DNA from: Vulcanimicrobiota bacterium
GTDB taxonomy: Bacteria > Vulcanimicrobiota > Vulcanimicrobiia > Vulcanimicrobiales > Vulcanimicrobiaceae
DNA length: 43,247 nucleotides
Reading direction: 5' to 3'
NCBI GenBank assembly: GCA_028287525.1
Contig: JAQBPM010000267.1
Location: 1-43,247 of the forward strand
Below the pieces are notes generated by a model. It ran no database searches. It was not told where the DNA came from and saw nothing but the letters and a program-made list of their open reading frames with translations. A program made the translations under genes and the position numbers. How positions within the stretch are numbered: position 1 is the stretch's first letter; each line of letters starts with the position of its first letter. Below are positions 6,639 to 34,956 of this stretch, in pieces.

Positions 6639-6704
6639 CTCTTACCGACGCGTGCACAGGACTCAAACACGATTGCTTCACCGCCCTGCGGAGGACGATT
6701 CTAT

Positions 6705-6748
6705 GTGAACCCTTGGTCTCGGTAGTGATTTGCCGTGTGAACGCATGG
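6705..6748 (+). promoter_or_regulatory. Direct repeat upstream of the EPS operon: GTGAACCCTTGG (6705-6716) and GTGAACGCATGG (6737-6748)
   Basis: 10 of 12 positions identical, start-to-start spacing 32 bp, in the divergent LuxR/export-protein intergenic region. Confidence 0.3.
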
Positions 6749-6790
6749 TATCGTTGCGCCACAATTCTCCCGATTATCGCGAGGATAGCA

Positions 6791-7933
6791 ATGCGCAACC
6801 GCTGCTCTGTGTTTGTGATCACCGTCGCTCTCTTGTTTAGTACAAACGTCCGAAGCGCCCAAGCAGCGCTCCATCCGGGTGATAAGGTCGACGTCCAGGT
6901 CTACAATCACCCGGAGCTCTCCGGGGTCCGGACGCTCGATGCGATGGGCAACGTCTCCGTGCCCGTAGCGGGAAGCGTCGCCGCGGCGAATCTCGAGCCG
7001 CGCGACGTAGCCGCTCGCATCCGCTCTAGGCTTGCTCCCTACGTACGGGGGGTCGCAGTTCAGGTTCGGCTCGACACGCAAAGCGAATCGATCTTCGTAG
7101 CCGGCGGCCCGGGCGGTTCCGTGAAGTTCGTTCCTGGGGAGACGCTCTCGAGCGTCGTCGATCGCCTCCAGACGACGCACGTTACGCCGCAGGCCCAGAG
7201 CAGCGCCGACGCCTCCGGGGTGGTGCGCGGTTCCGATGCGGTGGATCTGTTCAACGGCGCTGTGGACTTTCGTCGCGTCAGCTTGATGCGCGAGGGCACG
7301 GTGATGGGGCCATACGACCTACTCGCGCTGCGCGCGGCTGGGCAATTAGGCCCACCGCTCGCGCCGAACGACACGATTCAACTCGTGAACAAGCCGATCG
7401 CGGTGACGATCACGGGCGACGTGCAGCATCCCGGCATTGCCTATTTGCGGGATGGCGAGCCGCTCGCTCAGGCTCTCACACAGGTAGGCGGCGCCTCGCC
7501 GACGACGGCGACGAACAGCGGAATCGTGCTCGAGCGCGCCGGCGCCGCGAATCGCGTATCACTCGGCGGTGACCAGTTCGCCCAGCCGGCACAGAACGGC
7601 GACCGCCTCTTTGTTCCCCGCGCGCCGCACGTCGACGTCGTGGGCAACGTGACGAAACCCGGCGATGTGGTCCTGCGCGGCAACCCGACGCTCGTCAGCG
7701 CCATCTACTATGCCGGCGGTCCGTCGCAGTACGCGAACCTCAAAGCGGTTCAAGTGATCCACGGTCCCACGAAAAACACGTACAACTTGGACGCGCTGCG
7801 TAAGGGGCGTGCCGGCGAGAACCCGACACTCTCCGATGGCGACGTCGTGCTGGTTCCGCAGGGGAGCACGTTCGACCTGAACTCGGTGTGGTCGGCGATC
7901 GGTGCCCTCGGGCTGTTCGGGCTGCACATATAA
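6791..7933 (+). CDS. Polysaccharide export protein (Wza/SLBB family)
   Basis: Signal peptide then LHPGDKVDVQVYNHPELSGVRTLDAMGNVSVPVAGSVAAANLEPRDVAARI and repeated SLBB-like segments (ITGDVQHPGIAYLRDGEPLAQALTQVGG; VVGNVTKPGDVVLRGNPTLVSAIYYAGG). Confidence 0.85.
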   Translation: MRNRCSVFVITVALLFSTNVRSAQAALHPGDKVDVQVYNHPELSGVRTLDAMGNVSVPVAGSVAAANLEPRDVAARIRSRLAPYVRGVAVQVRLDTQSESIFVAGGPGGSVKFVPGETLSSVVDRLQTTHVTPQAQSSADASGVVRGSDAVDLFNGAVDFRRVSLMREGTVMGPYDLLALRAAGQLGPPLAPNDTIQLVNKPIAVTITGDVQHPGIAYLRDGEPLAQALTQVGGASPTTATNSGIVLERAGAANRVSLGGDQFAQPAQNGDRLFVPRAPHVDVVGNVTKPGDVVLRGNPTLVSAIYYAGGPSQYANLKAVQVIHGPTKNTYNLDALRKGRAGENPTLSDGDVVLVPQGSTFDLNSVWSAIGALGLFGLHI

Positions 7934-8541: not shown

Positions 8542-9846
8542 GTGACGATTCCCAAGACTATCTGCATCATCGGCACGGGGTACGTCGGAATGGCGAGCGC
8601 GATCGGGCTCGCCGAGCTCGGCCATCAGGTGTACGGCTACGACATCCAACCGGAGCGCGTCCGCGCGCTTCAGCGCGGAATCACGCCGTATAACGAAGCC
8701 GGGATCGAGGAGCCGCTTCAGCGGCATCTAGGAACCGGACGCATCGCGTTCTTCGAGGACCTCGCCCAAGCCGTCGGCCAGGCCGATTTCGTGATCGTCA
8801 CCGTCGGAACGCCGTCACTCGAAGACGGCGCGGCAGACCTCTCCGCGGTGCGGGATGCGATCTCCACGATCGTTCCCGTCATGCCCGAACATGCCGTGAT
8901 CGTGCTGCGCTCAACGGTGCCGGCCGGCACGACCAACCAGTTTGCCGAGCAATACGACGCGGAGTTCATCTACGCACCCGAGTTTCTGCGGGAAGGATCG
9001 GCGATAGCCGATTTCCTCAATCCGGACCGCATCGTCATCGGAGCCGCGTCGATGCCCGCCGGCCAGCACTACGCGCGGCTTCTCGCCGCGCTCGATCGCC
9101 CCGTCCTGGTCACTTCGTATCGCAATGCGGAACTCGTCAAGAGCGTTTCGAACGCCTTCTTGGCGCTGAAGATCAGCTTCGCGAACGAGGTCGCCAACTT
9201 GTGCGACGTGCTGGACGCGGACGCCCTCGAAGTGCTGCGCGGCGTCGGAGAGGATCGCCGGATCGGCGGAGAGTTTCTTGCGCCGGGGATCGGTTTCGGC
9301 GGACCCTGCTTCGAGAAAGACGTGAAGAGCTTGTGCCACGTCGCCCGGCTGCACGGTGCGCCGCCCGAGCTGCTGACAGCGACCTTGCGCGTCAACGAGT
9401 CGCAGCCGCGCCGTATCGTCGACGTCCTCGAAGAGGAGCTCGGCGGCCTGGGCGGCGCGCGCATCGCGGTCTGGGGACTCACGTTCAAGGCGGGCACCGA
9501 CGACGTTCGCGACTCGCTCGCCTTGCGCATCGTCGACGATCTGCGCGCTCGCGGCGCTGTGCCGCTCGCATACGACCCCGCGATCGCGCTGCACCCCGAG
9601 ATTCGCTGCGAGGTCGCCTTCTCCGCACTCGAGGCCCTGGATCGCGCCGATGGATTGCTGGTCCTCACGGAGTGGCCGGAGTTCGCCGCGATCTCGCCCT
9701 ACGCGGTCGCCGCGCGACTCCAGGGCGACGTCGTCGTAGACGGCCGAAACGTACTCGACCCGCAATCCTACGCGGCGGCCGGCCTTCGCTTTCGCGGCGT
9801 CGGCCGTCGCCCTGCAACCACGTTGCCGCTGGCCGCGGCGAGCTGA
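8542..9846 (+). CDS. ugd: UDP-glucose/GDP-mannose dehydrogenase family protein (UDP-glucose 6-dehydrogenase-like)
   Basis: GTG start; ICIIGTGYVGMASAIGLAELGHQVYGYDI...FIYAPEFLREGSAIADFLNPDRIVIG...LAPGIGFGGPCFEKDVKSL. Confidence 0.9.
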   Translation: MTIPKTICIIGTGYVGMASAIGLAELGHQVYGYDIQPERVRALQRGITPYNEAGIEEPLQRHLGTGRIAFFEDLAQAVGQADFVIVTVGTPSLEDGAADLSAVRDAISTIVPVMPEHAVIVLRSTVPAGTTNQFAEQYDAEFIYAPEFLREGSAIADFLNPDRIVIGAASMPAGQHYARLLAALDRPVLVTSYRNAELVKSVSNAFLALKISFANEVANLCDVLDADALEVLRGVGEDRRIGGEFLAPGIGFGGPCFEKDVKSLCHVARLHGAPPELLTATLRVNESQPRRIVDVLEEELGGLGGARIAVWGLTFKAGTDDVRDSLALRIVDDLRARGAVPLAYDPAIALHPEIRCEVAFSALEALDRADGLLVLTEWPEFAAISPYAVAARLQGDVVVDGRNVLDPQSYAAAGLRFRGVGRRPATTLPLAAAS

Positions 9847-11216: not shown

Positions 11217-11861
11217 ATGGAATCGCTCAAAGAGAACTTTCGCATTCTGCGGATTCGCGTCGAGTCGCAAACCGCGCTGCCGGCGATCGTGGTGGTCAGT
11301 GCGGCGATGTCCGGCGACGGTACGACGTACGTCGCGTCGGGTCTCGCGCGCGCGTTCGCCGAGGCCGGGCATCGGACGCTGCTGCTGGAAGCGAACACGG
11401 CGCGCCCGGGCGTCGCGGAGAGCCTCGACATCCGGCCGATACCGCCGACGTGCACTGCGGTCGGACTCCACGCGCGCCAAGCCGACGTGCCGGGTCTGTG
11501 GGTCACCGCATTGCGCGGCGGGCCGGCGGACGGGACGATCCGCGAACTCACCAGTCGGTTGCGAAGCGAGTTCGCCGTCACCGTGATCGACGCGGCGGCG
11601 ATCCCGACGTCCAGTACCGCGCTCCAATTCTCCCATGCCGCCGACGCGCTGCTCGTGGCGGTGCGAACGGGGCGCCGGGCTTGCGTCGCCGATCAAGAGC
11701 TCCTGCGGCTGATCGGCGATGGTGACGTGCGTCTGCTCGGCATCGTGCCGACGAAAGCGCGAGGCCGCCGCCTTTCCCCGCCGCTGAGCACGCCGCAGCT
11801 CGTTCCCGAAGTCGTCGATTCGCCGGCGCACTTTGCGCCCCGCGCCGGCGCCCGGGGATAG
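11217..11861 (+). CDS. BY-kinase (CpsD/CapB)-like ATPase, P-loop degenerate
   Basis: MESLKENFRILRIRVESQ... resembles CpsD N-termini; P-loop position reads SAAMSGDGTTYVASGLARAFAEAGHRTLLLEANT; no Tyr cluster at C-terminus. Alternative GTG start at 11205. Confidence 0.7.
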   Translation: MESLKENFRILRIRVESQTALPAIVVVSAAMSGDGTTYVASGLARAFAEAGHRTLLLEANTARPGVAESLDIRPIPPTCTAVGLHARQADVPGLWVTALRGGPADGTIRELTSRLRSEFAVTVIDAAAIPTSSTALQFSHAADALLVAVRTGRRACVADQELLRLIGDGDVRLLGIVPTKARGRRLSPPLSTPQLVPEVVDSPAHFAPRAGARG

Positions 11862-11862
11862 C

Positions 11863-12831
11863 ATGGCCGTTCTGGTAACGGGCGGAGCCGGATTTCTCGG
11901 CAGCCATCTCGTCGATCGCCTGGTGCGCGACGGGAACGACGTCATCGTCGCGGACAACCTTTCGACCGGCCGGATCGGCAACCTCGGCCCGGCGCTCTCG
12001 GCGGCGAGCGCGACGCTGGTGTACGTCGACGTCGCTTCACCGACCGCCGAGCTGCGGGCTGCGATCGAAGCCGCGTCGGCGGACCCCATCGATGCGATCT
12101 TCCACCTTGCCTCCCCGGCCAGCCCGGAAGCCTACGACGCGAATCCGTGGGAAACGCTGGCCGTCAACGCGCTGGGTACGATGTCCCTGATCGAGCTTGC
12201 GCTCGAGCGCGACGCCCTCATGCTCTTCGCGTCCACGTCCGAGGTGTACGGAGATCCCGGCGTTCATCCGCAGCCGGAGTCGTATTTCGGCAACGTCAAC
12301 CCGGTGGGCCCGCGAGCCTGTTACGATGAAGGCAAGCGCTTCGGTGAAGCCGCGATATCCGTTGCGATCCGGCGACGCGGTTTGAACGGACGCATCGTGC
12401 GTCTGTTCAACTGCTACGGGCCGCGAATGGACATCGGCGACGGACGGCTCGTTCCGGCGCTGCTCGCCGCGGCGACCGCGGGCGAACCCCTGCCAATTCA
12501 CGGGAGCGGGCTTCAGACGCGTTCGATGACGTACGTCGACGACGTCGTCGACGGGTTGATACGGGTTGCCGTGTCGTCCGGGGCCTATGACCCGGTGAAT
12601 CTCGGCAGCGAAGAAGAGCACACCGTCGTGGAGATCGCGCACGAGGTCGCTGCAGCGGTGGGGACGGCGTACGACGCCGTTCACCTTGCCCCGCGCCCGG
12701 AAGACCCGCACCGCCGGCGGCCCGACATCACGCGGGCGCGGCAGCTGGGCTGGTCGCCCACGACGCCGCTGCAGGAAGGGCTGCGCCGGACGTACGCCTG
12801 GTATCGCGCCTATGGGCTCCAGTATGCGTAA
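11863..12831 (+). CDS. NAD-dependent epimerase/dehydratase, UDP-glucuronate decarboxylase (UXS)-like
   Basis: [17 protein letters not shown]...[34 protein letters not shown]...[39 protein letters not shown]...[17 protein letters not shown]. Confidence 0.85.
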   Translation: [322 protein letters not shown]

Positions 12832-12840: not shown

Positions 12841-14193
12841 GTGATCGCTGCGGCGCGGCCGGCGCGCGCGGCGTCGGATTGGTCGCTGAACGGTGTGGTC
12901 GCCTGGTGGCGGGCGCGTCCGTGGATGCCGATCGCCATCGTGCTCGTGCTCTGGGCGATCATGCCGGGAATTCGGCGCCTCATCGACTGGCGGATCGGCT
13001 TCAACTACATCGCCGTGGCGAGCATCGTGCCGCTGCTTGCGCTTCTCCCGTTCGCGGTGCTCGTGCTGTATCGGGACCATGCCAAGTACCGGCGCTCGAT
13101 CGCTCTGTGCGCGTGGCTGTGGGCGGGCGGTTTCGGTTATTCCCTCGTCGTCGGCCTCGCGGCCGGCAATGGGCTGGCGGCCATCTACTCCGCGCTCAAT
13201 TTCATTCTGCCGATGTTCTTCGGATTGTGGGTCGCGCGGCTGGACATCGCACCGGAAGCGCTGAGCGAGCGGGTCGCGTCGATCGCGCTTTGGATTGCGA
13301 CGGGGCTGGCGATGTACGCGGTCTTTCAGTACGTCGCACTGCCCGAGTGGGACGCGGCGTGGATGCGGAACACGAACATCATCAGCGTCGGATACCCGGC
13401 GCCGTTCCAATTTCGTCCGTTCTCGACGCTCAATGCGCCGGGTCCGTTCGCCGACTTTCTGGTTGCGGTGCTCCTGTTGAACCTGCCGCGCCTCAAACGC
13501 CCCTCGTGGCTGCAGCTCGTGCAGATCATGCTCGTCGCCGGCGTCCTCGTGCTCACCATGGTGCGAACTGCGTGGATCGCCGCGCTCGTGGGCGTGTTCG
13601 CCTACCTGCTGATGAGTCCGAATCGCGCGAAGAACCTCGCGGTCTTCAGTCTTGTCGGCATCGTCTGCGCGCTGCTGGTGTTCAATGCCGGCGTTCTGCT
13701 GGGGAACGACCAGGCGGGGAGCGACCTCTCGCGCCGCTTCGAGACGCTCGGAAATCTGCAAAGCGATAGCTCGTACAATGACCGCCAGTCATATTTCGGC
13801 GACAAGCTGCAGATTGCGCTAAGCCAGCCGACGGGCGGTGGTCTTGGTCTGCTGGGAACCGCGGCGAAGCTGGGCTCCGCCCAACAGGTCGTCGACTTCG
13901 ACAACGGCTACATCGGGCGACTCACCGAGATGGGATACTTCGGGACGGCCTGCTACCTCGCGACGCTGGCCGCCGGCCTCGCGCTGGCGTGGCGGTATTG
14001 GGCCGAGGCGCGCCGGCGGGGGAGTCCGCGTGAAGCCGCGTTCGGCGCCGCCGTGTTCGCGTTGCAGTTAACGTTGGCGCTCAGCGACACCTCGAGCGAT
14101 CATCACAATCAGTTCATGGGGATCTTCTTCTGGCTCAGCCTCGCGCTGATCTGCTGCCGTCACGAACGCATCAGGAGAGCGGTGCGAGCGTGA
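12841..14193 (+). CDS. O-antigen ligase / Wzy-like polymerase family membrane protein
   Basis: Multi-TM protein in an EPS operon; GTG start; C-terminal FGAAVFALQLTLALSDTSSDHHNQFMGIFFWLSLALICC. Confidence 0.7.
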   Translation: MIAAARPARAASDWSLNGVVAWWRARPWMPIAIVLVLWAIMPGIRRLIDWRIGFNYIAVASIVPLLALLPFAVLVLYRDHAKYRRSIALCAWLWAGGFGYSLVVGLAAGNGLAAIYSALNFILPMFFGLWVARLDIAPEALSERVASIALWIATGLAMYAVFQYVALPEWDAAWMRNTNIISVGYPAPFQFRPFSTLNAPGPFADFLVAVLLLNLPRLKRPSWLQLVQIMLVAGVLVLTMVRTAWIAALVGVFAYLLMSPNRAKNLAVFSLVGIVCALLVFNAGVLLGNDQAGSDLSRRFETLGNLQSDSSYNDRQSYFGDKLQIALSQPTGGGLGLLGTAAKLGSAQQVVDFDNGYIGRLTEMGYFGTACYLATLAAGLALAWRYWAEARRRGSPREAAFGAAVFALQLTLALSDTSSDHHNQFMGIFFWLSLALICCRHERIRRAVRA

Positions 14194-17018
14194 CCGCAGC
14201 TCACAACGCCGTCGGCCGTATCGTGCGCAACGGGATGAGCGGGGCAGGCGCTCGCATCCTAATGATGGTGGTGGGGTTCGCCCTCACGCCCTACATCGTC
14301 CACTCGCTGGGATTTTTGGACTTCGGCTTGTGGGCGACGGTCGGCGCGCTGGCCGGATACCTGGGCATCCTCGACTTCGGACTCGGCGGCTCGTTCGTCA
14401 AGTTCATCGCGCAGTATGTCGAGCGCAACGAGCACGCGTCGGCACGCCAAGTCATCACCTTCGGCATGCTGTTCTACCTCGGCTTCGGGATTCTGACGGC
14501 CGTGCCGGTGTTTCTATGCGCACCAGCGCTCGTCCATTTGTTCAAGATGCCGGCGGAGGCGTATCCGCACGCCGTAGCGGTGTTCCGGGCCCTGTTCGTG
14601 ATCTTGATCGCGTCGCTGGCCTTCGGAATACTGGGGAGCTGCATCATAGCGGTCCACCGGCTCGACTTGGCGAGCCGCAACAACATCGTCGGGTACGCGG
14701 TCTACGCCGCCCTCGTCGCCGTGCTGCTCCACCTGCACCGCGGCATCTTCGGCGTCATCGCGGCGCAGGCTGCGCAAGTTGCCGTGACCGCGACGTTGCA
14801 TTACTTCACCGCACGGCGCCTTTTCGGTCCGGTTTGGCACGATCCGCGGCGCTTGGACCCCCGGATCGTCAAGCAGATGTTCAGCTTCGGCGGTTGGACG
14901 CAGCTCACGACGATCTTCAACGTGATCATGTTCGACGCCGGACGGTTCCTCTCGGCCGGCATCGTGGGCGTCTCGAGCGTTACCTATTATGAGATCGGCG
15001 GCAGGCTGGCATACATTTCGCGCGGACTACCCGGCTATCTGCTCGATGCGCTTCCGCCCGCGGCGGCGGCGGCGGACGCACGCGGCGACCGCGAAGAGGT
15101 GCGTCACATTTCGGTCAGCACGGCACTCTATTTCCTGCTCGTTACGACGCTGCTCGCGGGCTTCGTCTGGGGCGCTTGCGGCCCGATCATGCGCGTTTGG
15201 TTCGGGACCGATCACCCCTACGTGCACGATATCGTGCTCTGCCTAACCCTCGCATACGTGGTCAGCTCCGGCGCAGCCGTGCGGGTCACCGTCGTTCGTT
15301 CGCTGGGTCGGCCCGAGCTCGAGACCGCGTGCGTTGCGTCCGGAGCGGCCGCGACCGTCGCGGCTACGCTGCTGCTGGTGCCGCACCTCGGCGTGGTGGG
15401 CGCCGCGCTGGGCTACTCAGCGGGATGGATTGCGTACTCGGTGTGCTCGCTCGTCGTCGACAGACGCGGGAACGTATACGAGTGGTGGCATTCCACCGGA
15501 GACGCTTCGTTGCGGATCATGGCGGTCGGCGTCTTCAGCGCCCTCGGATTGAAGGACGCGGTCGATCTGCCGTGGATCGCTGGCCTGTTCGCGCACCGCG
15601 TAACGGGATTGTTCGCGCTGGCCGCGTCCGGCGTGCTGTACGTGCTCGCCTTCACGCTGCTGATCTGGGCGGTCGGCGCCTGGCGTTTCGAGGAGCGGCG
15701 ATTCGTGCACGTCGCGACGCGACTGCGCGGTGTCCTGCTCCCAGCGTCGCGCTCGATCGCGATCGTCGCGCTTGCGGCGGGCGCCCTCGTGGCGTCGGTC
15801 GCGTCGGCAACGACGGCCGCGGCACCAGCAAGCGAAACCCCGCGCTCGGCCGCAAGCTTCGTCGACTCGGTGGGGATGAATCTGCATCTGGCATACGGCG
15901 ACACGCCGTACGCCAACGTCGATCGCGTCGCGCAGCTGCTCACGGCTCTGCACGTGCGCCACGTGCGCGACGGCGTCGAACCGGGCCGGACGGATCTGTG
16001 CGCCGCTGCGCAGCGCCTCTCGCGAAACGGCATCCGGTTCACGTACATCACCAAGCCCAATCTCGACGGCGCGGGGCTCGCTGCGTGGCGCCGCTGCGTC
16101 GGCCGTTCGATCGAAGCGTACGAAGCGCCCAACGAGTACAACACGAGCCATCCTGCCGCGGACGGCGACTGGGTCGCGACGATCCGCGCGTATCAGCGTT
16201 CGCTCTATCGCTCGGTCAAGTCGGATCCCGCACTTGCGGATCTGCCCGTGATCGGTCCGTCCTTCTCGACCATAGCGGCGTACGCGCAGGTCGGCGATCT
16301 CTCAACGAGCATGGACCGCGGCAATCTGCACCAGTATTTTGCAGGCCGGCCGCCGGAGACGAACGGGTGGGGCGAGGGCGGTTATGGCAGCCTGCGCTAC
16401 GGGATCACCCACGCGCGAGAGGTCGCGGGCGCAAAGCCGATCGAGGTGACCGAAAGCGGTTACGGGACGGCACCGCGCCCGGAGATGGTTCCGCGGCCGA
16501 TTGCTGCGCGCTACATTCCGCGAATGTTTTTCACGCAGTACAACTCCGGGATCGAGCGCACGTACCAGTACGAGCTCTTCGACGAGGGCGGACCGCCCTT
16601 CGACACGTTCGGGCTTGCGGATGCTCACGGCGCGCCCAAACCGGCGTTCCTTGCCCTGGCGAGCATCATGCAGCTCCTCGCCGCGGCAGGCTCTCCATCG
16701 CATCCTTCGCCGGCGCTGCAGGTCGAAGTAAACGCGGCCGGCGCACCGGTTCGCCACACGTTGCTCGCCGGTCGCGACGGGATCTACCTCGCGCTGTGGC
16801 TCGAGTCGTCGGCGATCGATCCGAATACACTTCGCGAGGACCCGGTCCCGACGGCTCAAGCGACCGTCTCACTCGGAGTCCCGCTGGCCTCCGCGACCCG
16901 CTACGCGTCCGACGCCATGGGGACCCTGCAGCCGGTTCGGCTCGTTGCGGCGACCCGGCTCACGACCACGATCTCCGACGCGGTCACCATCCTCAAGCTC
17001 GTTCCGAGGCACTCATGA
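14190..17018 (+). CDS. Wzx-like polysaccharide flippase fused to a C-terminal glycoside-hydrolase-like (clan GH-A-like) domain
   Basis: N-terminus SGAGARILMMVVGFALTPYIVHSLGFLDFGLWATVGALAGYLGILDFGLGGSFVKFIAQY is Wzx-like; from about 15850 the same frame reads FVDSVGMNLHLAYGDTPYANVDRVAQLL...YEAPNEYN...IEVTESGYG...YQYELFDEGG, homologous to the three secreted proteins at 29.2-33.8 kb. Confidence 0.85.
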   Translation: MTAAHNAVGRIVRNGMSGAGARILMMVVGFALTPYIVHSLGFLDFGLWATVGALAGYLGILDFGLGGSFVKFIAQYVERNEHASARQVITFGMLFYLGFGILTAVPVFLCAPALVHLFKMPAEAYPHAVAVFRALFVILIASLAFGILGSCIIAVHRLDLASRNNIVGYAVYAALVAVLLHLHRGIFGVIAAQAAQVAVTATLHYFTARRLFGPVWHDPRRLDPRIVKQMFSFGGWTQLTTIFNVIMFDAGRFLSAGIVGVSSVTYYEIGGRLAYISRGLPGYLLDALPPAAAAADARGDREEVRHISVSTALYFLLVTTLLAGFVWGACGPIMRVWFGTDHPYVHDIVLCLTLAYVVSSGAAVRVTVVRSLGRPELETACVASGAAATVAATLLLVPHLGVVGAALGYSAGWIAYSVCSLVVDRRGNVYEWWHSTGDASLRIMAVGVFSALGLKDAVDLPWIAGLFAHRVTGLFALAASGVLYVLAFTLLIWAVGAWRFEERRFVHVATRLRGVLLPASRSIAIVALAAGALVASVASATTAAAPASETPRSAASFVDSVGMNLHLAYGDTPYANVDRVAQLLTALHVRHVRDGVEPGRTDLCAAAQRLSRNGIRFTYITKPNLDGAGLAAWRRCVGRSIEAYEAPNEYNTSHPAADGDWVATIRAYQRSLYRSVKSDPALADLPVIGPSFSTIAAYAQVGDLSTSMDRGNLHQYFAGRPPETNGWGEGGYGSLRYGITHAREVAGAKPIEVTESGYGTAPRPEMVPRPIAARYIPRMFFTQYNSGIERTYQYELFDEGGPPFDTFGLADAHGAPKPAFLALASIMQLLAAAGSPSHPSPALQVEVNAAGAPVRHTLLAGRDGIYLALWLESSAIDPNTLREDPVPTAQATVSLGVPLASATRYASDAMGTLQPVRLVAATRLTTTISDAVTILKLVPRHS

Positions 17019-17875
17019 GTTCTCCCGAACCGGACTCCCTCGCGATCGTCATCGCGTCGAAGAATCGGCGTGACGATCTTGCCCTCGCACTTCGCTCGAT
17101 CCGCGAACAACGGACCCAGCCCGACCGGATCATCGTCATCGATCAATCCGATCCCCCGTACGCGCTGGTCGAGGACGACGTACTGCGTTATCGGCACGAT
17201 CCGACGATTCCGGGTCTCACCGTGGCGCGCAACGCCGCCATCGCGCTCAACGATTGTGCCAACGTCCTCTTCATCGACGACGACGTCGAGTTCGTCAGCG
17301 ACGTCGTCGCGCATCTGCGCGACAACTTCCGCGCGCATTCCGATGCGATCGGGCTGCGCTGCGCCATCTCGCCCCCGCAAGTCAGGCACTTCGTGGAGCA
17401 GCCCGGCTTCGGAAGCCGCATTTGGGGCGCTTGGCAGCGCGTCTTTTGGCGCGGTTTCTTCGACAATAACACCGCCGAGCTGAACGACCGCGGAGAGGTC
17501 GGGTTCGCGCCGGGGTGTGCGATGGCGTTCCGCTCCACGCTGTTCGAGACGGAGCGCTTCGACCCGGCACTGGTCGACTACAGTTACGGAGAGGATTGGG
17601 AGTTCTCGAAGCGCGCGCGCCGGCACGGCCGGCTGTACCACGTCGCCGACGCCGTGCTCGTTCATCACGAGTCGACGCTCAATCGCTACGGACAGCGGCG
17701 ACTGCTCGCGCAGCGCTGGCGCAACATGCTGTATTTCTACGACAAGCTCGAGCACGATCGCACCGCGTTCGATCGCTTTTGGCGCCTGTGGTGGATGCTC
17801 GGCGAAACCGCCGTGTGGCTGCGCAAAGGGTACGGCCTGCCCAAGCAGGAGGCGAGATGGCCGAAGGGCCGCTGA
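17015..17875 (+). CDS. Glycosyltransferase family 2
   Basis: LAIVIASKNRRDDLALALRSIREQRTQPDRIIVIDQSD...NVLFIDDDVEF...GEDWEFSKRARRHGRLYHV; ATGA overlap with preceding gene. Confidence 0.85.
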   Translation: MSSPEPDSLAIVIASKNRRDDLALALRSIREQRTQPDRIIVIDQSDPPYALVEDDVLRYRHDPTIPGLTVARNAAIALNDCANVLFIDDDVEFVSDVVAHLRDNFRAHSDAIGLRCAISPPQVRHFVEQPGFGSRIWGAWQRVFWRGFFDNNTAELNDRGEVGFAPGCAMAFRSTLFETERFDPALVDYSYGEDWEFSKRARRHGRLYHVADAVLVHHESTLNRYGQRRLLAQRWRNMLYFYDKLEHDRTAFDRFWRLWWMLGETAVWLRKGYGLPKQEARWPKGR

Positions 17876-25570: not shown

Positions 25571-25777
25571 TCAGGACCCCTCGCCGCCTATCGCATCTGC
25601 GGAGCCGGCATGATGGAACTCCGAAGATCGGTCGCTCTCGAGGTCGATATAGTGTGCCTCGGTCGCAGCGGGATATTCGGCAGAGTCTATTTCCAGCCGA
25701 GAAAACCGGCCTGATGCGGCCTCCGATGCGAGCGACGCTCGGGACCATCCGGCACCGGGCAACGTGAGGCGGCTCAT
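25571..25777 (-). CDS. Possible short ORF (68 aa) coupled by ATGA overlap to the upstream GT4 gene
   Basis: MSRLTLPGAGWSRASLASEAASGRFSRLEIDSAEYPAATEAHYIDLESDRSSEFHHAGSADAIGGEGS; begins inside the stop of the 25774-26910 gene. Confidence 0.3.
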   Translation of the reverse strand: MSRLTLPGAGWSRASLASEAASGRFSRLEIDSAEYPAATEAHYIDLESDRSSEFHHAGSADAIGGEGS

Positions 25778-26910
25778 GCGCTGGTCATCCTTCTCTGCCT
25801 GGCGATCGGGCGCTCGAGGCGTTCCCAGGCGGCGTCAACGAGTTGTGCGAGGGTCGCGCCGAAGCGCTCGTGTCCGAACGTCTCTGCGTGCGCGCGGATG
25901 CGGCCGCGATCGAACGGAAGCCGCTCCAGGCGGTGCATCGCTTCGACGAACGCTTCAACCGTCTGCTCGCCGGCGAAGACGCCCGTTACGCCGTCGATGA
26001 TGGTCTCGCACGCCCCACCCTCGCCGAAGGCCACGACGGGACGTCCGCACGCCATCATCTCGACGGGTGCCATTCCAAAGTCTTCGAATGCCGGAAACAG
26101 CATGGCGCGCGCACCGCGCATCAGCGCCACTAGCTCGGCGTCGGAGACGTGTCCGCGATACTCGACGTGCGGCGCCTGCAGCACGTCGCGGCCGGGTCCC
26201 GTTCCGACGACGATCAGGCGCCGCCCGAGAACGGCCGTTGCCGCAACGGCGAGGTCGATGCGTTTGTACGGCACCAGGCGCGAGGCGACGAGGTAGTAGT
26301 CCGCGTCAACCGCGGTGCCGTGCGGAGTGAAGCGCGAGATGTCGATCGGCGGATGGAGAACGCGGCTGTCGCGGCCGTAGTGCTTTGCGATCCGGGCGCG
26401 CGTCGTCTCGCTGTTCGCGACGAACTCGTCGACGCGCCCGGCGGTGACGAAGTCCCACACCCGCAGGCGCCCGAGCATCGCGCTCGCAAGTGGACGAGCG
26501 GGCGCCGGAAGCGTGCGCAGCTCGTCGAACGGCCGCTCCCACAAGGCGCGCATGGGCGTGTGGCAATAGCAGATGTGGTGCTGGCGCGCGCTTCGCAGGA
26601 TCCCCTTCGCCGCCGTATGGTGCGAAGAAACGATGACGTCGTACTCCGTGAGGTCAAAACTTTCGACGGCTCCCGGATACAAGGGGAGGAACCATCGATG
26701 GCGCCGGGCTGCCCCCGGTATTCGCGCCAAGCCTGAGGAGCGGATGCGCGGCGCGAGCGACGCGGGGCCGTGGTCTTGCGAATACAGGATCGCGAAGATC
26801 GGCGCGTCGGGAAATGTCTGCGCCATCACCTCGACGCAGCGTTCCGCGCCGCCCCGCTGGACGAGCGGATCCGATACGATGGCGACGCGCGGACTACGCG
26901 ACCGCGGCAT
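25774..26910 (-). CDS. Glycosyltransferase family 4
   Basis: RVAIVSDPLVQRGGAERCVEVMAQTFPDAPIFAILYS...YLVASRLVPYKRIDLAVAATAVLGRRLIVVGTGP...AMLFPAFEDFGMAPVEMMACGRPVVAFGEGG. Confidence 0.9.
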   Translation of the reverse strand: MPRSRSPRVAIVSDPLVQRGGAERCVEVMAQTFPDAPIFAILYSQDHGPASLAPRIRSSGLARIPGAARRHRWFLPLYPGAVESFDLTEYDVIVSSHHTAAKGILRSARQHHICYCHTPMRALWERPFDELRTLPAPARPLASAMLGRLRVWDFVTAGRVDEFVANSETTRARIAKHYGRDSRVLHPPIDISRFTPHGTAVDADYYLVASRLVPYKRIDLAVAATAVLGRRLIVVGTGPGRDVLQAPHVEYRGHVSDAELVALMRGARAMLFPAFEDFGMAPVEMMACGRPVVAFGEGGACETIIDGVTGVFAGEQTVEAFVEAMHRLERLPFDRGRIRAHAETFGHERFGATLAQLVDAAWERLERPIARQRRMTSA

Positions 26911-28030
26911 CGATCACGCGGACGGTCTGCGAGGCGATGTGCGCGGCGTCGAAGCGGCTGATCCCCGCGCGCGCCGCGATGCGGGCGGCGCCCAACCGCT
27001 CCGGGTCGCGCAGATAGGCGACGATCGCGGTAGCGAACGCCTCTTCGTCGCCGGCCGGAACGGCACGTCCCGTGACGCCTTGTATCACCGTCTCTGCCGC
27101 GCCGCTGTCGTCGAAGCAGACACTGGGCGTCCCGCACGCGGCCGCCTCGATCACCGCGCGGCCGAACGCCTCGCGCGTCGAACAGTTGCAGTTGACGTCA
27201 CTCGCGGCATAGATGCCGGTAGCGTCGTCGGTCCAGGGCAAGAACACGATGCGATCGCCCAGCCCCAGGCGCTCGGCGAGCGCGTGCAGCTCGGGGACGA
27301 AGTCCGCGTCGCGAAAGACGGGGGCGCCTGCGATCACGAAACGCGCCGGGATCGACTCGTTGACGCGCGCCGCGATGCGCAAGAATCGGTCGTGACCTTT
27401 CCAGCGGTTGATGCGGCCGACCAGCGAGACCACCGGCAGATCGTTCGGCAGGCCGAGCGCCGCGCGCGCGCCGGCCCTCTCCGGGACCCGGGCGTAGCGA
27501 TCGAGGTCGAGCGGTGCATAGATCACGCTGGTGGGTCCGGCGGCGATCGTATCGGCGACCATCTGCGAGCATGCGATTCGCGCGCGCGACCCCAGCCGCG
27601 CGGCGACGCGAAGCGCGGTCAGCCCCTTTCCGGCGATCATGTCGTGAAAGTGCATCACGCACGGGACGCCGGCGAGGCGCGCGGCCAACGCGCCGATGAG
27701 ATGCGCCTTCATCGAGTTGGTGTAGACGGCGTCGACGCGCCGCCGCGCCAGGATCGTGCCAAGGCGGCGGGCGGCGTCCGATGCGGCAAATGCCGCCCCG
27801 AACCGCAACCGTTCCCGCGTGGAGCGCAGGATCGCCGGGTGGACCGGGACGATCCCGACGTCACAGCCGCCGGAGCGCAGGCGCTGCGCGAACGCCCCGT
27901 CCTCGAACAGCACGATCGACGGTTCGATCGCGTCATGTGGAAGGTGTTTGAGCAGCGTGGCCAGGGTCTGTTCGGCGCCGCCGGCAGTCGCGCCGACGTG
28001 ATCGACGAACGCGACGCGCAGCGGCTTCAC
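26894..28030 (-). CDS. Glycosyltransferase family 4
   Basis: GTG start at 28030 (KPLRVAFVDHVGATAGGAEQTLATLLKHLP...VVSLVGRINRWKGHDRFLRIAARV...NCSTREAFGRAVIEAAACGTPSVCFDDSG). Confidence 0.9.
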   Translation of the reverse strand: MKPLRVAFVDHVGATAGGAEQTLATLLKHLPHDAIEPSIVLFEDGAFAQRLRSGGCDVGIVPVHPAILRSTRERLRFGAAFAASDAARRLGTILARRRVDAVYTNSMKAHLIGALAARLAGVPCVMHFHDMIAGKGLTALRVAARLGSRARIACSQMVADTIAAGPTSVIYAPLDLDRYARVPERAGARAALGLPNDLPVVSLVGRINRWKGHDRFLRIAARVNESIPARFVIAGAPVFRDADFVPELHALAERLGLGDRIVFLPWTDDATGIYAASDVNCNCSTREAFGRAVIEAAACGTPSVCFDDSGAAETVIQGVTGRAVPAGDEEAFATAIVAYLRDPERLGAARIAARAGISRFDAAHIASQTVRVIDAAVA

Positions 28031-29166
28031 GCCGCCGCCCGGTAGATGTCCGCTATGCGCCCGGCGATCGCCGGCCACGAGAACCCGCGCACGTAGCGGA
28101 TGCATGCCTCCTCGGAGGGAAGCGCGATCCGCCCGGTGAGCGCATCGCTCAAGCCGCGCGCAAGGGAACGTGCGTCGCACCCGTCGAGCACGAGCGCCGG
28201 GTCGAGCATGTTGACCGTATCGGGCAGACCGCTGACCGGCGTGACGAGCGCCGGCGTCCCGCACGCGAGCGCCTCCAGCGCGACCAGGCCGAACCCTTCG
28301 AGCGACGTCGTCGGGACGATGGAGACGTCGGCCGCGCGATAGATGGCCGGCAGGGCGCGCGGATCGACGAAACCGGTCAGATGCACCCATCGTTCGAGCC
28401 CGCGCGAAGCGACCTGCGAACGGAACGTCTCCTCGAGCGGGCCGGTGCCGGCGATCACGAGGAGCACGTCGGGGATCACGCGGCGGAGCGCGTCGACGGC
28501 ATCGATCAGGTTTTCGATCCCCTTTGCGCGCACCAATCGGCGCACCGCGACGACGGTTGGGCGATCGGTGGGCCAGCCTAAGGCTCGGCGCACCTCGGAG
28601 CGCGGCCGCTCATCGTGGAACCAGTCGAGATCGACGCCGCCGGGGACGACCGAGATCGCGTCAGGATTGACGCGGTAGCGCTCGGCCAGCAGCTGCGCGT
28701 ACGCCCGCGAAAGCACGATGAACCGCGCGCCGCGCGCGTACACGATACGCTCGAGGAGCGTCTTTGCCAGAACGACTGCCGGTGAGGCGCCTTCGGATGC
28801 GCCCTCGAGCGCCCACGATCCGTGGAAGTGCACGACGTGCGGCCGCGAGCGCAGACGGTCGAGGACCGGAAACGCGTACGGAGCGAAGTGCGAAACCACG
28901 ACGTCACTCTCGGCGAGCGAGCGTGTGATGCTGCGGCGCAACGCGCTCCATCGGCGGAACATGCCGACGTCGTCGGGGGCAAACGACTCGAGCACGGCCG
29001 CCCCATCTCGCCCGCTGGCGTCGCCGGCGATGAGGGCCCGTGTGCGCACTCCCTGCGGCGGCAACGCGCGCAGCAAGTTGAAGAAGTACACGTCGAGGCC
29101 TCCGCCACGCTCACGCGTACCCGTCATGCCGAGCTGGAGCACGCGGAGCGCAGCGGTCTCTCCCAC
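28027..29166 (-). CDS. Glycosyltransferase family 4
   Basis: LRVLQLGMTGTRERGGGLDVYFFNLLRALPPQGV...TVVAVRRLVRAKGIENLIDAVDALR...VPTTSLEGFGLVALEALACGTPALVTPVSGLPDTV. Confidence 0.9.
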   Translation of the reverse strand: MGETAALRVLQLGMTGTRERGGGLDVYFFNLLRALPPQGVRTRALIAGDASGRDGAAVLESFAPDDVGMFRRWSALRRSITRSLAESDVVVSHFAPYAFPVLDRLRSRPHVVHFHGSWALEGASEGASPAVVLAKTLLERIVYARGARFIVLSRAYAQLLAERYRVNPDAISVVPGGVDLDWFHDERPRSEVRRALGWPTDRPTVVAVRRLVRAKGIENLIDAVDALRRVIPDVLLVIAGTGPLEETFRSQVASRGLERWVHLTGFVDPRALPAIYRAADVSIVPTTSLEGFGLVALEALACGTPALVTPVSGLPDTVNMLDPALVLDGCDARSLARGLSDALTGRIALPSEEACIRYVRGFSWPAIAGRIADIYRAAA

Positions 29167-29217: not shown

Positions 29218-30579
29218 TTAGGGTGTGACGTCGAGCAAGGTAGGACTGCCCCCGATGTTCAGCGTGACCGAGGCCGCCGAAGCGACGGTCCCCGTCACCA
29301 CGTTCCCGGCATCGTCGAAGGACGTCGAGCGAAGTCTCGACGGGGTGCGGGCGAAGGTCAGGCGCGTCGCCTGCGGCGAGAGCGCGAGCGGCGTATTCGT
29401 ACGCGCATCCCACTCAGGCGCCTCGAGCCATAGCGCTAGGACGAACGATCCGTCCCGTTTTTGGAACAGGGCGTGGTGAACTTGCGCCGGCGCAGCCAGC
29501 GTGTACGACAGAGATCGCGGCACGACCGGCGTGCCCGGATCGCTCAGGTGTGCGAGCAGGTTTTTCACCGCGGCGTAGGCGGGCTTGATGGTCCCCCTGC
29601 CGTCCGTCAGGCCGTAGCTGCCGAAATACCCGCCGCCTTCGTCGACGAGCTCGTAGACGTACGTTCTCGGAACATGCGCGTTCCACGCCTCCAGCAGCGT
29701 CCGCACGGTGTACCGCGCTTTCGTCGCGGGCGGCACGTATACGGTATTCGACGTATCCCCATAGCCCGTTTCCGTGATGTAGACGGGCTCTGCGCCCGTC
29801 GGTTGCGCCGCGATCGCGAGGTCATAGCCGAGCGAACCATAGACGCCGAACGAGTTCCCGCCGCCCCATCCGGGCGTGCCGGGATTTCGCGCGGCAAAAT
29901 AGGCGTGCAAATTCCCCACATCACTCGTCGCGGCGACGGAGCCGAGTGCCGCATACGCCGACTGGCTGGTGAGCGACGGCGCAACGACGGTGACGCCGCG
30001 CATCGCCTTGACCGTCGAGTGGAGCCACTGCTGCACGGATCGGTCGGTCTGCGGCCAGTTCGTGTCGCTTGCGGGATGCGAGGCATCCCATTCGTTGAGG
30101 CCTTCATACGCGTCCGCCGTCCGTGAGGTGCACGAATCCCACGTCGTGACGTCGGTCGGACTCATCCAATGCGCGACGATGAAGTCGCCATGGATTCCCT
30201 GCGATGCGAGCTGGCGAAAGTTGGAGCACAGGCTCGTATTTCCCGTATAGACGCCGTCGCGGACGTGACGAACGCCTAACCCTACGAGAAGATTGTCAAC
30301 AGCGCTGAAATTGTTTCCGTAGAGCGTTCCATAGTATCCCAGGTGGACGTTGACGCCGACGGAGTCGACGAAGGCATCCGCACCGCGAGCGGTCTCGGCG
30401 CTCGTACTTTGCAGTACTGACTCGGTCGTCAGCATCGCGCTGCTCGGGGCGGCGCCCGAGCTCGCGACGACACCGGGGTTCGGAACGGCGCCGGATCCGC
30501 CGCCTCCGCATGCGGAAAGTGCGACCATCGACACAGAGCAACACAGTGCCGCGGTCAAGCGGCATAGACTTGAATTCAA
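29218..30579 (-). CDS. Secreted glycoside-hydrolase-like lipoprotein, tandem paralog copy 1
   Basis: TTG start; lipobox LSAC; AFVDSVGVNVHLGYYGTLYGN...YEGLNEWDASHPASD...VYITETGYGD...RTYVYELVDEGGGYFGSYGL. Confidence 0.85.
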   Translation of the reverse strand: MNSSLCRLTAALCCSVSMVALSACGGGGSGAVPNPGVVASSGAAPSSAMLTTESVLQSTSAETARGADAFVDSVGVNVHLGYYGTLYGNNFSAVDNLLVGLGVRHVRDGVYTGNTSLCSNFRQLASQGIHGDFIVAHWMSPTDVTTWDSCTSRTADAYEGLNEWDASHPASDTNWPQTDRSVQQWLHSTVKAMRGVTVVAPSLTSQSAYAALGSVAATSDVGNLHAYFAARNPGTPGWGGGNSFGVYGSLGYDLAIAAQPTGAEPVYITETGYGDTSNTVYVPPATKARYTVRTLLEAWNAHVPRTYVYELVDEGGGYFGSYGLTDGRGTIKPAYAAVKNLLAHLSDPGTPVVPRSLSYTLAAPAQVHHALFQKRDGSFVLALWLEAPEWDARTNTPLALSPQATRLTFARTPSRLRSTSFDDAGNVVTGTVASAASVTLNIGGSPTLLDVTP

Positions 30580-30640
30580 ATTCTCTCATCCCTCGCTGCG
30601 TCTTGCGCAGCGGACGCGAACACATGCTGTTCGCAAGTCC

Positions 30641-30697
30641 TATCGGCACGGCGAGCGCCCACAAGAGCAAATTTACGAGCGTGTGAGCGTCGTCTCG
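30641..30697 (-). promoter_or_regulatory. Conserved upstream block, copy 1
   Basis: TATCGG (30641) and TGTGAGC (30682) start 41 bp apart, as at 32233/32274 and 33832/33873. Confidence 0.5.
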
Positions 30698-30783
30698 ACC
30701 ACCCTACAAGGGAGGGATCGCACTGCAGCGACGGGCCGCTATCGCTCTACAACTGCTGAGCGAGCGGTGCTTCCGTTTCGGCG

Positions 30784-30802
30784 AAAAACCGTGCCAGCAC
30801 GG
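30784..30802 (-). terminator. Intrinsic terminator after paralog copy 2
   Basis: Minus strand CCGTGC-TG-GCACGG followed by TTTTT. Confidence 0.65.
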
Positions 30803-30818
30803 CCCGAAATCGGTTCCG

Positions 30819-32225
30819 TCAGGACGTGATGTCGAGCAAGATAGGACTCGCGCCGACCTGTATCGTCAGCGCGCCGGCCGGAGCGACCGCGGTCGTCGAT
30901 GCGTTGCCGTTGTCGTCGAACGCCGTCGTGTGAAGCGACGACGGCGAGCGACCGAACGTCAGGAGGGCGGCTTGAGGCGCGACCGCGACCGAGTGGTTCC
31001 CGTTCGGATCCCACTCGGGCGCCTCGAGCCACAGCGCCAGGACGAACGAGCGATCGCGCTTTTGGAACAGTGCGTGATGAACCTTGGCGGGCACGGTCAG
31101 CGTGTACGCGAGGGATCCCGGCGCGATTGGGGTTCCCGGATCGCTCAGGTGCGCGAGCAGATTCTTTACGGCGGAGTATGCGGGCTTGACGGTCCCGTTC
31201 GCGTCGGTCAAGCCGTAGCTGCCGAAATCTCCGCCGCCGTTATCGACGAGCTCGTAGACGTAGGTCCGTGTGACGCCGGCGTTCCAGTTCTCGAGCAGCG
31301 TGCGCATCAGGTAACGCGCCTTCGTCCCGGCCGGAACCGCGTACGAAGTGCCCGGGGCGTCGCCGTAGCCGCTCTCGGTGACGTACATCGGCTTCGTTCC
31401 CGTGGGCTGACGAGCGATCGCGAGATCGTAATCGAGCGCACCGTAGACGCCGAACGAGTCCCCGCCGCCCCACCCGGCCGTGCCGGGATTTCGCCCCGCG
31501 AAATAGACGTGAGCATTGCCGACATCACTGCTCGCACCGAGCGCTCCGACCGTCGCGTACGCCGATTCGCTGGTGAGCGAGGGCGCCACGACCGTCACGC
31601 CACGCGTCGATCTCACCGTCGAGGAGAGCCACTCTTGGACGGACGCGTCGGTTTGCGACCAGTTTCCGTCAGTCGCGGGATGCGAGGTGTCCCACTCGTT
31701 GAGGCCCTCGTACGCATCCGCAGTCCGCGCAGTACACGAGTCCCATGCCGTGACGTCGCTCGGGCTCATCCAGCTGCCGACGATGAAGTCGCCGTGTATG
31801 CCGAACGAGGCGAGCCGGCTGAAGTTCGAGCACAGGCTCGTCTGCCCGGGAGAGATACCGTCGCGGACGTGGCGGATTCCGAGTCCCGTGAGCAGCGATG
31901 CTATGGCGGAGAAATTGTCGCCGTAGAGCGTCCCATAGTAGCCGAGGTGGACGTTGACGCCCACGGAGTCGACGAAAGCGTCCGCGGCACGAGCGGCCTC
32001 GGACGGGCCGAGGTTCGGGCTGGGAGTCGAACTCGGACTCGCAACGGGGCTCACGACCGGGCTCGGGCCCGTGCTTGGCGTCGGGGCTGCGCTTGCGCTC
32101 GGGCCCGCGACGAGGTCGGCGTTCGGAACGAGACCGGGCCGGCTGCCGCCTCCGCATGCCGCGAGCGTGAGAAGCAACAGCGAGCAAAACGATGCCGTGA
32201 TGACGCGGCATAGGTTTGAGTACAC
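30819..32225 (-). CDS. Secreted glycoside-hydrolase-like lipoprotein, tandem paralog copy 2
   Basis: GTG start; lipobox LAAC; Pro/Ser-rich linker PTPSTGPSPVVSPVASPSSTPSP; AFVDSVGVNVHLGYYGTLYGD...YEGLNEWDTSHPATD...MYVTESGYGD. Confidence 0.85.
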   Translation of the reverse strand: MYSNLCRVITASFCSLLLLTLAACGGGSRPGLVPNADLVAGPSASAAPTPSTGPSPVVSPVASPSSTPSPNLGPSEAARAADAFVDSVGVNVHLGYYGTLYGDNFSAIASLLTGLGIRHVRDGISPGQTSLCSNFSRLASFGIHGDFIVGSWMSPSDVTAWDSCTARTADAYEGLNEWDTSHPATDGNWSQTDASVQEWLSSTVRSTRGVTVVAPSLTSESAYATVGALGASSDVGNAHVYFAGRNPGTAGWGGGDSFGVYGALDYDLAIARQPTGTKPMYVTESGYGDAPGTSYAVPAGTKARYLMRTLLENWNAGVTRTYVYELVDNGGGDFGSYGLTDANGTVKPAYSAVKNLLAHLSDPGTPIAPGSLAYTLTVPAKVHHALFQKRDRSFVLALWLEAPEWDPNGNHSVAVAPQAALLTFGRSPSSLHTTAFDDNGNASTTAVAPAGALTIQVGASPILLDITS

Positions 32226-32232
32226 GTTTTTC

Positions 32233-32287
32233 TATCGGCGCGGCGCGCGCCGTCAGGATCGAATTCGCACGGATGTGAGCATCGTCG
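32233..32287 (-). promoter_or_regulatory. Conserved upstream block, copy 2
   Basis: TATCGG at 32233 and TGTGAGC at 32274, 41-bp offset. Confidence 0.5.
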
Positions 32288-32342
32288 CGCGCGCTGCGCG
32301 CGGAAGGAATTTCAACGCAGCGAGGCTGTCGAGCGAAAGAAA

Positions 32343-32365
32343 GAACGCCCTGTTGCAGGGCGTTC
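32343..32365 (-). terminator. Intrinsic terminator after paralog copy 3
   Basis: Minus strand GAACGCCCTG-CAA-CAGGGCGTTC followed by TTTCTTTC. Confidence 0.7.
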
Positions 32366-32399
32366 GGTGATATTCCATGACGTCGGAACAGAGCGAGCG

Positions 32400-33764
32400 C
32401 TAGGGCATGATATCGAGCAAGGTAGGGCTCCCTCCGACGGAAAGGGTAACCGCGCCGCTCTGGGCGAGCGCCTGCGTCGTTACGTTGCCGCCGTCGTCGA
32501 ACGACGTCGTGCGCAGCATCGACGGCACGCGGCCGAACGTCAAGACCGTTGCTTGCGGGGCAACCGCGATCGGGACGTTCGCGTTCGGATCCCACTCCGA
32601 GACCTCGAGCCACAGCGCGAGGACGAACGATCCGTCGCGCTTTTCGAATAGCGCATGGTGAACCTGCGCCGGCGCGGCGAGCGTGTATGCGAGCGATCGC
32701 AGCGTGACGGCTCTACCCGGATCGCTGAGGTGCGCGAGCAGATTTTTCACCGCCGTGTACGCGGGCTTGACGTTCCCGTTGCCGTCCGCCAGGCCGTAGC
32801 TCCCAAAATATCCGCCGCCTTCGTCGATAAGCTCGTAGAGATACGTCCGTGAAAGCTTTGCATTCCACGCTTCCAGCAGCGTCCGCAACGTGTATCGTGC
32901 TTTGGTTGCAGGCGGCACGTATACCGTGTCGGACGTATCACCGTAACCCGTCTCCGTCACGACGATCGGTTTCGTCCCAGTCGTTTGCCGCGCGATGGCG
33001 AGGTCGTACTTCAGCGAACCGTAAACGCCGAAAGAGTCACCGGCTCCCCATCCGGTCGTGCCGGGATTCCGCGCCGCGAAGTAGACGTGCGCATTGCCGA
33101 CGTCGCTCGTGGCGGCGACGGAGCCGAGTGCGGCGTACGCCGACTCGCTGGTGAGCGACGGAGCGAAGACCGTGACCGGACGCATCGCTTTGACGGTGGA
33201 GTAGAGCGACTGCTGCACCGACGCGTCGGTTTGCGGCCAGTTCGTGTCGGTTGCGGGGTGCGAGATGTCCCACTCATTGAGGCCCTCGTACGCATCCGCC
33301 GTCCGCCCGGTGCACGAGTCCCACGTCGTGACGTCGGTCGGGCTCATCCACGAGCCGACGATAAAATCACCGCGTATACCGTGCGCTCCGAGTTGGCTGA
33401 ACTCGGAGCACAGGTTCGTCCACCCGGGAGAGATGCCGTCGCGGATATGCCGAATCCCCAATCCGGTGAGCAGGTTTTGCACGGCGGTGATATCGCTGTA
33501 GCGCGTCCAATAGTAGCCGAGATGCACGTTGACGCCGACGGAGTCGGCGAAGCTTGCCGCGCGACGCGGCATCTCGGTGAGGCTCGTACTTTTCGCCGTC
33601 GCGGCGGTGACGAGCGTCGTATCGTTTGCGGCGAGGCCGGAGTCCGCAACGACGCCGGCATTCGGGACGACGCCGGATCGGCCGCCGCCTCCGCATGCCG
33701 CCAGCGCGACCGCCAGCAATGAGCAACACAATGCCGCTCTGAAGCGGCACAGGCTCGAATACAC
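32400..33764 (-). CDS. Secreted glycoside-hydrolase-like lipoprotein, tandem paralog copy 3
   Basis: GTG start at 33764 (VYSSLCRFRAALCCSLLAVALAACGGG) aligned with the other copies; SFADSVGVNVHLGYYWTRYSD...YEGLNEWDISHPATD...IVVTETGYGD. Confidence 0.85.
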   Translation of the reverse strand: MYSSLCRFRAALCCSLLAVALAACGGGGRSGVVPNAGVVADSGLAANDTTLVTAATAKSTSLTEMPRRAASFADSVGVNVHLGYYWTRYSDITAVQNLLTGLGIRHIRDGISPGWTNLCSEFSQLGAHGIRGDFIVGSWMSPTDVTTWDSCTGRTADAYEGLNEWDISHPATDTNWPQTDASVQQSLYSTVKAMRPVTVFAPSLTSESAYAALGSVAATSDVGNAHVYFAARNPGTTGWGAGDSFGVYGSLKYDLAIARQTTGTKPIVVTETGYGDTSDTVYVPPATKARYTLRTLLEAWNAKLSRTYLYELIDEGGGYFGSYGLADGNGNVKPAYTAVKNLLAHLSDPGRAVTLRSLAYTLAAPAQVHHALFEKRDGSFVLALWLEVSEWDPNANVPIAVAPQATVLTFGRVPSMLRTTSFDDGGNVTTQALAQSGAVTLSVGGSPTLLDIMP

Positions 33765-33831: not shown

Positions 33832-33888
33832 TATCGGCGCGGCGCGCGCGATAAGGAGGGAATTCTTGCTGGTGTGAGCGCCGTCTCG
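33832..33888 (-). promoter_or_regulatory. Conserved upstream block, copy 3
   Basis: TATCGG at 33832 and TGTGAGC at 33873, 41-bp offset. Confidence 0.5.
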
Positions 33889-34630: not shown

Positions 34631-34956
34631 CGTTCCGGCCCTCCGCGCAGCACGACCATCGCCCGCGCCCATCCCGCGTCGGTTCTGGTGCGGACGAGAA
34701 ATCCGTACTCCGTGCGATCTTCCACCTGGTAGCCCGCGCGGAGGGCCTCATTGAGCGAGACGAAGATAACCATGAGCGCATTTTGAACGCCGCCCGGTAC
34801 GGCGCGCTTACGGCGGCGAGAGTCGCGACCTTACCGTGCGCTTACGCCGAACGGCCGCAGGGTCCCCAAAGGCGGCCATGCGGCCCTACCAGCTAGGACG
34901 AACGTCCAGAAGCGTGTCGCAAATGCAGATCAAGAAGGCGCTTGCCATGCCCGCCC

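Follow-up and report, generated by a model that had tools for sequence, protein, structure and literature searches.

Why do EPS loci encode a cutter of their own product? The question has been posed for PslG (PMC9075953), and it arises again in a 43,247-nucleotide contig of a Vulcanimicrobiota bacterium, analyzed here over its whole length (the window). One domain appears in it four times, once at the C-terminus of a Wzx-type flippase ORF and three times in tandem lipoproteins (Table 1). The first-pass annotation had described these as four versions of a candidate glycan-active domain tied to a polysaccharide locus, and had suggested an undescribed module for EPS maturation, trimming or self-recognition. 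Our preferred reading, to which we assign a probability of roughly 0.6, is that the four copies are retaining EPS glycosidases of the window's Wzx/Wzy locus, comprising a membrane-tethered cutter and three outer lipoproteins. At the level of the family there is good support for a glycan-active EPS module, and this reading is discussed below alongside the observed homology, predicted fold, catalytic residues, purifying selection, lipoboxes, locus context and recurrence in EPS loci.

Table 1 Coordinates of the features discussed, in positions of the window
Feature	Position	Strand	Details
Wza-type polysaccharide export protein (Poly_export, SLBB)	6620..7933	+	
UDP-glucose/GDP-mannose dehydrogenase	8542..9846	+	
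NAD-dependent sugar epimerase/dehydratase	11833..12831	+	
Wzy_C polymerase/ligase	12841..14193	+	PF04932 E 9e-12; overlaps flippase ORF start
Fused ORF, Wzx-type flippase then predicted glycosidase domain	14190..17018	+	942 aa; single open frame; PF01943 residues 12-276, E 1.3e-16
Possible internal translation start	15690..15707	+	GAGGAG nine bases 5' of in-frame GTG at 15705; from sequence
Hydrophobic helix linking flippase to glycosidase domain	15756..15812	+	Residues 523-541; hydropathy 2.15; RLRGVLLPASRS precedes
PslG-like glycosidase domain of the flippase ORF (~390 residues)	15849..17015	+	Profile match E 1e-121
GT2 glycosyltransferase	17015..17875	+	PF00535 E 1.2e-10; directly 3' of fused ORF
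GT4 glycosyltransferase, farther downstream of lipoprotein A	25774..26910	-	PF00534 E 4e-21; same strand as lipoprotein A
GT4 glycosyltransferase, downstream of lipoprotein A	28027..29166	-	PF00534 E 5e-38; 51 bp from lipoprotein A
Lipoprotein A, PslG-like glycosidase (predicted)	29218..30579	-	Predicted acid/base E163, nucleophile E270; lipobox LSAC
Conserved upstream element, gene A	30641..30697	-	Aligned across three upstream regions
Lipoprotein B, paralog of A	30819..32225	-	Lipobox LAAC
Conserved upstream element, gene B	32233..32289	-	Aligned across three upstream regions
Lipoprotein C, paralog of A	32400..33764	-	Lipobox LAAC; likely start GTG at 33764
Conserved upstream element, gene C	33832..33888	-	Aligned across three upstream regions

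Four related copies in one EPS locus

Genes for Wza, Ugd, Wzy, Wzx and glycosyltransferases are all present in the window, and relatives of the domain are enriched beside such genes elsewhere, which bears out the proposed link to a polysaccharide locus. Near the start of the locus lies a minus-strand gene (4372-5682) for a secreted protein without a Pfam match. This protein contains EYGHEAWK, similar to EYSNEVWN, a motif of a different family of barrel-type proteins that occurs close to EPS genes, and it may be a further glycan-active protein. The product of another minus-strand gene (2238-4700), which overlaps the start of this ORF, is large and secreted and includes a Malectin domain (E 6e-20).

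The three lipoproteins are paralogous to the flippase C-terminal domain, as had been proposed: the motifs quoted at the time occur in all four copies, and a search of the own genome with lipoprotein A returned E values of about 0, 4e-220 and 6e-201, followed by the flippase tail at 1.9e-74. No fifth copy was found in this search (assembly 81% complete, 502 contigs). Over the domain only, the lipoproteins are mutually 72-76% identical and the flippase tail is 39-41% identical to them, which points to a similarity far beyond chance. The four copies form one group in both trees (support 81/95 with IQ-TREE on 84 domains, 0.975 with FastTree on 94 domains), and the three lipoproteins cluster within it at 100/100. 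Judged from these trees, the flippase-linked copy is sister to the three lipoproteins but too diverged to be a near copy of them, and the simplest history would be duplication within the window locus and the joining of one copy to the flippase. Among the three lipoproteins, dN/dS is 0.20-0.26 at a dS of about 0.8; they have thus been diverging for a while under purifying selection. By pattern, each carries a lipobox cysteine followed by glycines, and a single frame runs through the flippase and its domain, so that the predicted arrangement is the one first suggested, with one flippase-tethered copy and three lipid-anchored ones. The GTG at 33764 was taken as the likely start of lipoprotein C because it is homologous to the start of the neighboring gene, and it coincides with the end coordinate given in the first-pass annotation; an alternative reading from 33803 is possible.

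An element of about 57 bases is common to all three lipoprotein upstream regions. Its first half, GACGNNGCTCACA-N8-AATT-N3-TC, has three zero-mismatch occurrences in the genome, one ahead of each lipoprotein gene. That the element is conserved despite a dS of 0.8 suggests that the three genes share a promoter or a site for a regulator, although part of the conservation could reflect common ancestry. A gene for a LuxR/NarL-type response regulator (33995-34672, also on the minus strand) immediately precedes the lipoprotein run, and its product is a candidate regulator of the run. At the other end, lipoprotein A likely shares a transcript with the GT4 gene that follows it. RNA folding of the leaders was also compared with that of shuffled sequences; because the gene C leader was more stable (z -3.2) and that of gene A not clearly so (z -1.6), an RNA element is not claimed.

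Predicted fold and catalytic residues

No Pfam-A or NCBIfam model matched the domain above cut-off, in keeping with the earlier suggestion of an unnamed family, and single-sequence searches (Pfam, PDB and a scan of genome contigs) identified no relatives. PslG was reached solely by a profile built from 49 relatives of multiple species. It was the top match of this profile among PDB sequences (E 6e-13), followed by an uncharacterized structure and then by weaker matches to GH17 and GH39 enzymes. In the profile alignment, the conserved TE of the family aligns with the TE of PslG that contains, by chain offset, the nucleophile E276 (for the catalytic residue roles in PslG, see PMC6813494 and PMC11912335). 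The Pfam GH39 model was not matched by the 49 members at E 0.1, and the domain was filed as PslG-like, not GH39. For the xylan or xyloside substrates that had been named for assay, nothing was found beyond weak similarity to GH39 beta-xylosidases.

The AlphaFold2 model of lipoprotein A (pLDDT 94.1, pTM 0.94) is an eight-strand (beta/alpha)8 barrel with its strands in order, followed by a C-terminal beta-sandwich. Enzymes of clan GH-A are recognized by an Asn-Glu acid/base behind strand 4 and a Glu nucleophile on strand 7. In the model (domain numbering), N101-E102 lies right behind strand 4 (94-98), E209 is on strand 7 (205-211) and H164 sits on strand 6. When the model was compared with the PDB using Foldseek, PslG entries ranked 1-3 (E 2.4e-18 to 1.6e-17, TM 0.66-0.68) and the next enzyme was more than four orders of magnitude behind; all matches were GH-type barrels, and sequence identity to PslG in the match is just 16%. 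The relatives have one common fold, not unrelated ones.

All 84 distinct domains, which come from about ten phyla, have the two glutamates together with the Asn and the His, and 83 have the Arg. It should be noted that 51 loci were retrieved with a peptide pattern containing NE, so that the invariance of NE there is partly selection; the Arg, the His, the second Glu and the copies found by profile are unaffected by it. In the flippase ORF, the invariant residues correspond to a predicted acid/base E649 (16134-16136) and nucleophile E755 (16452-16454). From the fold and the catalytic pair, the four copies are predicted to be retaining glycosidases of clan GH-A, in an unnamed PslG-like family, and the glycan-active domain of the first-pass annotation holds in this predicted form, with PslG as the nearest fold and the catalytic pair conserved.

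Two other functions were weighed at this point. Lipid anchoring and the presence of several copies would suit surface recognition by non-catalytic EPS-binding or self-recognition proteins. This is very improbable, as the catalytic residues are retained at the frequencies given above, profile-found copies included; the retention of these residues in every copy also argues against the self-recognition role first entertained. Retaining clan GH-A includes transglycosylases as well, and the profile has weak similarity to the beta-1,3-glucanosyltransferase 4wtp (E 1.3e-4). With the same retaining chemistry, the enzymes might couple EPS chains to one another or to a different glycan, by attachment or cross-linking, and the sequence by itself does not separate the two activities. 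However, the nearest characterized fold, that of PslG, belongs to a hydrolase and is far ahead of the others, and we consider transglycosylation quite unlikely.

The flippase-glycosidase reading frame

The Polysacc_synt domain of the flippase half scores 61.3 bits against a curated cut-off of 28.2, and a simple scan gave ten hydrophobic peaks ahead of residue 500 (the MOP fold has 12-14 membrane helices). Residues 523-541 look like either an extra membrane helix or a signal-like segment. In an AF2 model of the fused protein made without an alignment, residues 505-541 form one long helix at low confidence and the pLDDT of the flippase half is mostly 30-60. Helix 523-541 follows an Arg-containing stretch; if the end of the flippase is cytoplasmic, this helix would carry the glycosidase domain across to the periplasmic side.

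A polytopic membrane N-terminus is present in only one of 98 family ORFs (84 distinct domains, with some loci represented twice), that of the window; most others begin with a signal-like hydrophobic stretch or a lipobox, or carry additional N-terminal sequence. By open-frame length, no further flippase fusion was found in 149 genomes of the window's phylum and 66 cyanobacterial genomes, nor in 396 Acidobacteriota genomes, where part of the long frames were opened. The flippase half has no relative at E 1e-8 in 98 other genomes of the family, and the fusion therefore rests on one MAG assembly.

Alternatively, some or all of the glycosidase part could be translated from the GTG at 15705 and secreted as a protein in its own right, or the fusion could stem from a recent or assembly-derived stop loss. 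There would then be no flippase-tethered enzyme but four ordinary secreted EPS hydrolases. The upstream GAGGAG, the good signal-peptide-like stretch that follows the GTG and the finding of no second flippase fusion among the 98 family ORFs all point in this direction, and the fragmentation of the MAG into 502 contigs would favor a stop loss by assembly. On the other hand, the frame is uninterrupted across both halves, GAGGAG reads equally well as Glu-Glu codons, and a gene of its own normally has a stop ahead of it. We regard this explanation as somewhat unlikely. Judged from the reading frame, the GTG could give a free, secreted copy with a signal-peptide-like N-terminus, and the locus may make both fused and free forms. 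A true flippase-hydrolase chimera, in which a cutter is coupled to a lipid-linked-sugar transporter for trimming, release or proofreading at the exit of repeat units, with the three lipoprotein paralogs farther out, remains a tentative proposal that falls a little short of even odds.

In the open-licence literature, we found no published description of a flippase-hydrolase fusion and no use of the names PslG-like, PslG homolog or PslG family. The earlier word "undescribed" stands in part: the sequence family and the flippase fusion are new, but hydrolases within EPS loci, including PslG, are familiar (PMC9075953, PMC6813494). The novelty lies in an unnamed PslG-like family, enriched in EPS loci and repeatedly amplified, and in an apparent Wzx-flippase fusion.

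Family distribution, proposed mechanism and known systems

The PslG-like family spans about ten phyla in a patchy manner, with members in 10 of the 149 genomes of the window's phylum, 0 of 10 other genomes of the same genus and 6 of 396 Acidobacteriota genomes. This rarity and patchiness fit an accessory, transferred trait. EPS glycosyltransferase or Wzy relatives of the window's genes lie within 10 kb in 25 of 51 loci, and a GT or Wzy gene lies within 300 bp of the family member in 14. With whole-genome counts as the control, a Wza-family gene was found within 25 kb in at least 11 of 33 genomes (1.4 expected, P about 3e-8) and a Wzy_C gene within 10 kb in at least 8 of 33 (1.0 expected, P about 3e-6); the observed counts are lower bounds owing to short contigs and include the window's own genome, and the genomes are non-independent draws. 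In Methylocystis sp. MJC1, the gene order is flippase, O-antigen ligase-type gene and family member, and a Granulicella tundricola plasmid has family members, annotated as hypothetical or as RICIN-domain proteins, in a full EPS locus. About half of the family loci show no EPS genes, and the neighbors are mixed at twelve such loci. EPS as a substrate is therefore not a family-wide rule, and some members probably have other functions as secreted proteins. As for whether homologs are found mostly outside polysaccharide loci, a point raised with the initial proposal, they are clearly enriched in EPS loci but also occur outside them.

Several lineages have more than one copy. In an Acidobacteriota genome, three tandem family genes (L127, 7699-11798) lie within a Wzy/GT run and group by genome, which makes them an independent parallel to the three lipoproteins of the window. 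The same grouping by genome holds for a tandem triplet in another Eremiobacterota genome (L020/L113), for two copies in G102 and for four in a Synechococcales MAG, and the trees indicate that the family expanded separately within the EPS loci of several lineages. Two three-copy sets (L128 and L129) are of mixed origin in the tree. One cyanobacterial member (L116 4292-5370) is split over three frames next to an intact copy (G179) and is either a decayed or a misassembled paralog.

The lipoproteins might also be nutritional enzymes that degrade foreign polysaccharides and merely adjoin EPS genes. Half of the relatives are encoded elsewhere than in EPS loci, and some of these carry N-terminal modules such as LamG; surface anchoring would also suit foraging. 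However, a paralog is fused to an EPS flippase in the same locus, a GT gene lies only 51 bp from lipoprotein A, and the family is enriched near Wza and Wzy genes across genomes; we consider a nutritional role improbable.

Under our preferred reading, all four enzymes would be dedicated to the EPS of the window's Wzx/Wzy locus. The flippase-borne copy would sit on the periplasmic side of the inner membrane, at the point where lipid-linked repeat units come out and are joined by Wzy, and would cut nascent or stalled polymer for release, length control or clearance. The lipoproteins would act farther out, in the periplasm, at the outer membrane or on the cell surface, in trimming, remodeling or clearing EPS. 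Enzyme activity, EPS as the substrate, membrane topology and the division of labor are what we infer here, and flippase-tethered cutting is modeled, by analogy, on the proposal for PslG held at the inner membrane.

A natural Wzx-hydrolase fusion would place the cut at the membrane exit point, and the fused ORF would offer a single protein in which the coupling of flipping and trimming could be tested. The PslG-like family may qualify as a new glycoside hydrolase family and could supply new EPS-degrading enzymes. Cultured cyanobacteria, for example Leptolyngbya sp. PCC 7375, as well as Acidobacteria and Kineococcus have members whose current annotation is hypothetical or follows an attached module.

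Among known systems, PslG of Pseudomonas aeruginosa (CAZy GH39; PDB 4zn2, 5bx9, 9g17) shares with the family the barrel and beta-sandwich, the aligned TE and a gene within an EPS locus. It is a retaining endo-beta-glucosidase that cuts Psl (PMC11912335) and occurs both in the periplasm and at the inner membrane (PMC6813494), and its inner-membrane association and catalytic residues are important in Psl production (PMC6813494, PMC9075953). It differs in serving the Psl system as one free copy per locus, with neither a flippase fusion nor tandem lipoprotein paralogs. The GH17, GH30, GH51, GH5 and GH39 beta-xylosidase enzymes have the same clan GH-A barrel and catalytic pair, but their matches are much weaker than those of PslG, by profile and fold alike. 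AlgL and the glycosidase domains of PelA and PgaB are likewise polymer cutters encoded with polymer-making machinery; they belong to other families with other chemistry, and no Wzx fusion was found in their published descriptions. Finally, Wzx/MOP-type flippases (PF01943) match the N-terminal ~495 residues of the fused ORF, which differs from them in its extra helix and the predicted glycosidase domain of ~390 residues at its C-terminus.
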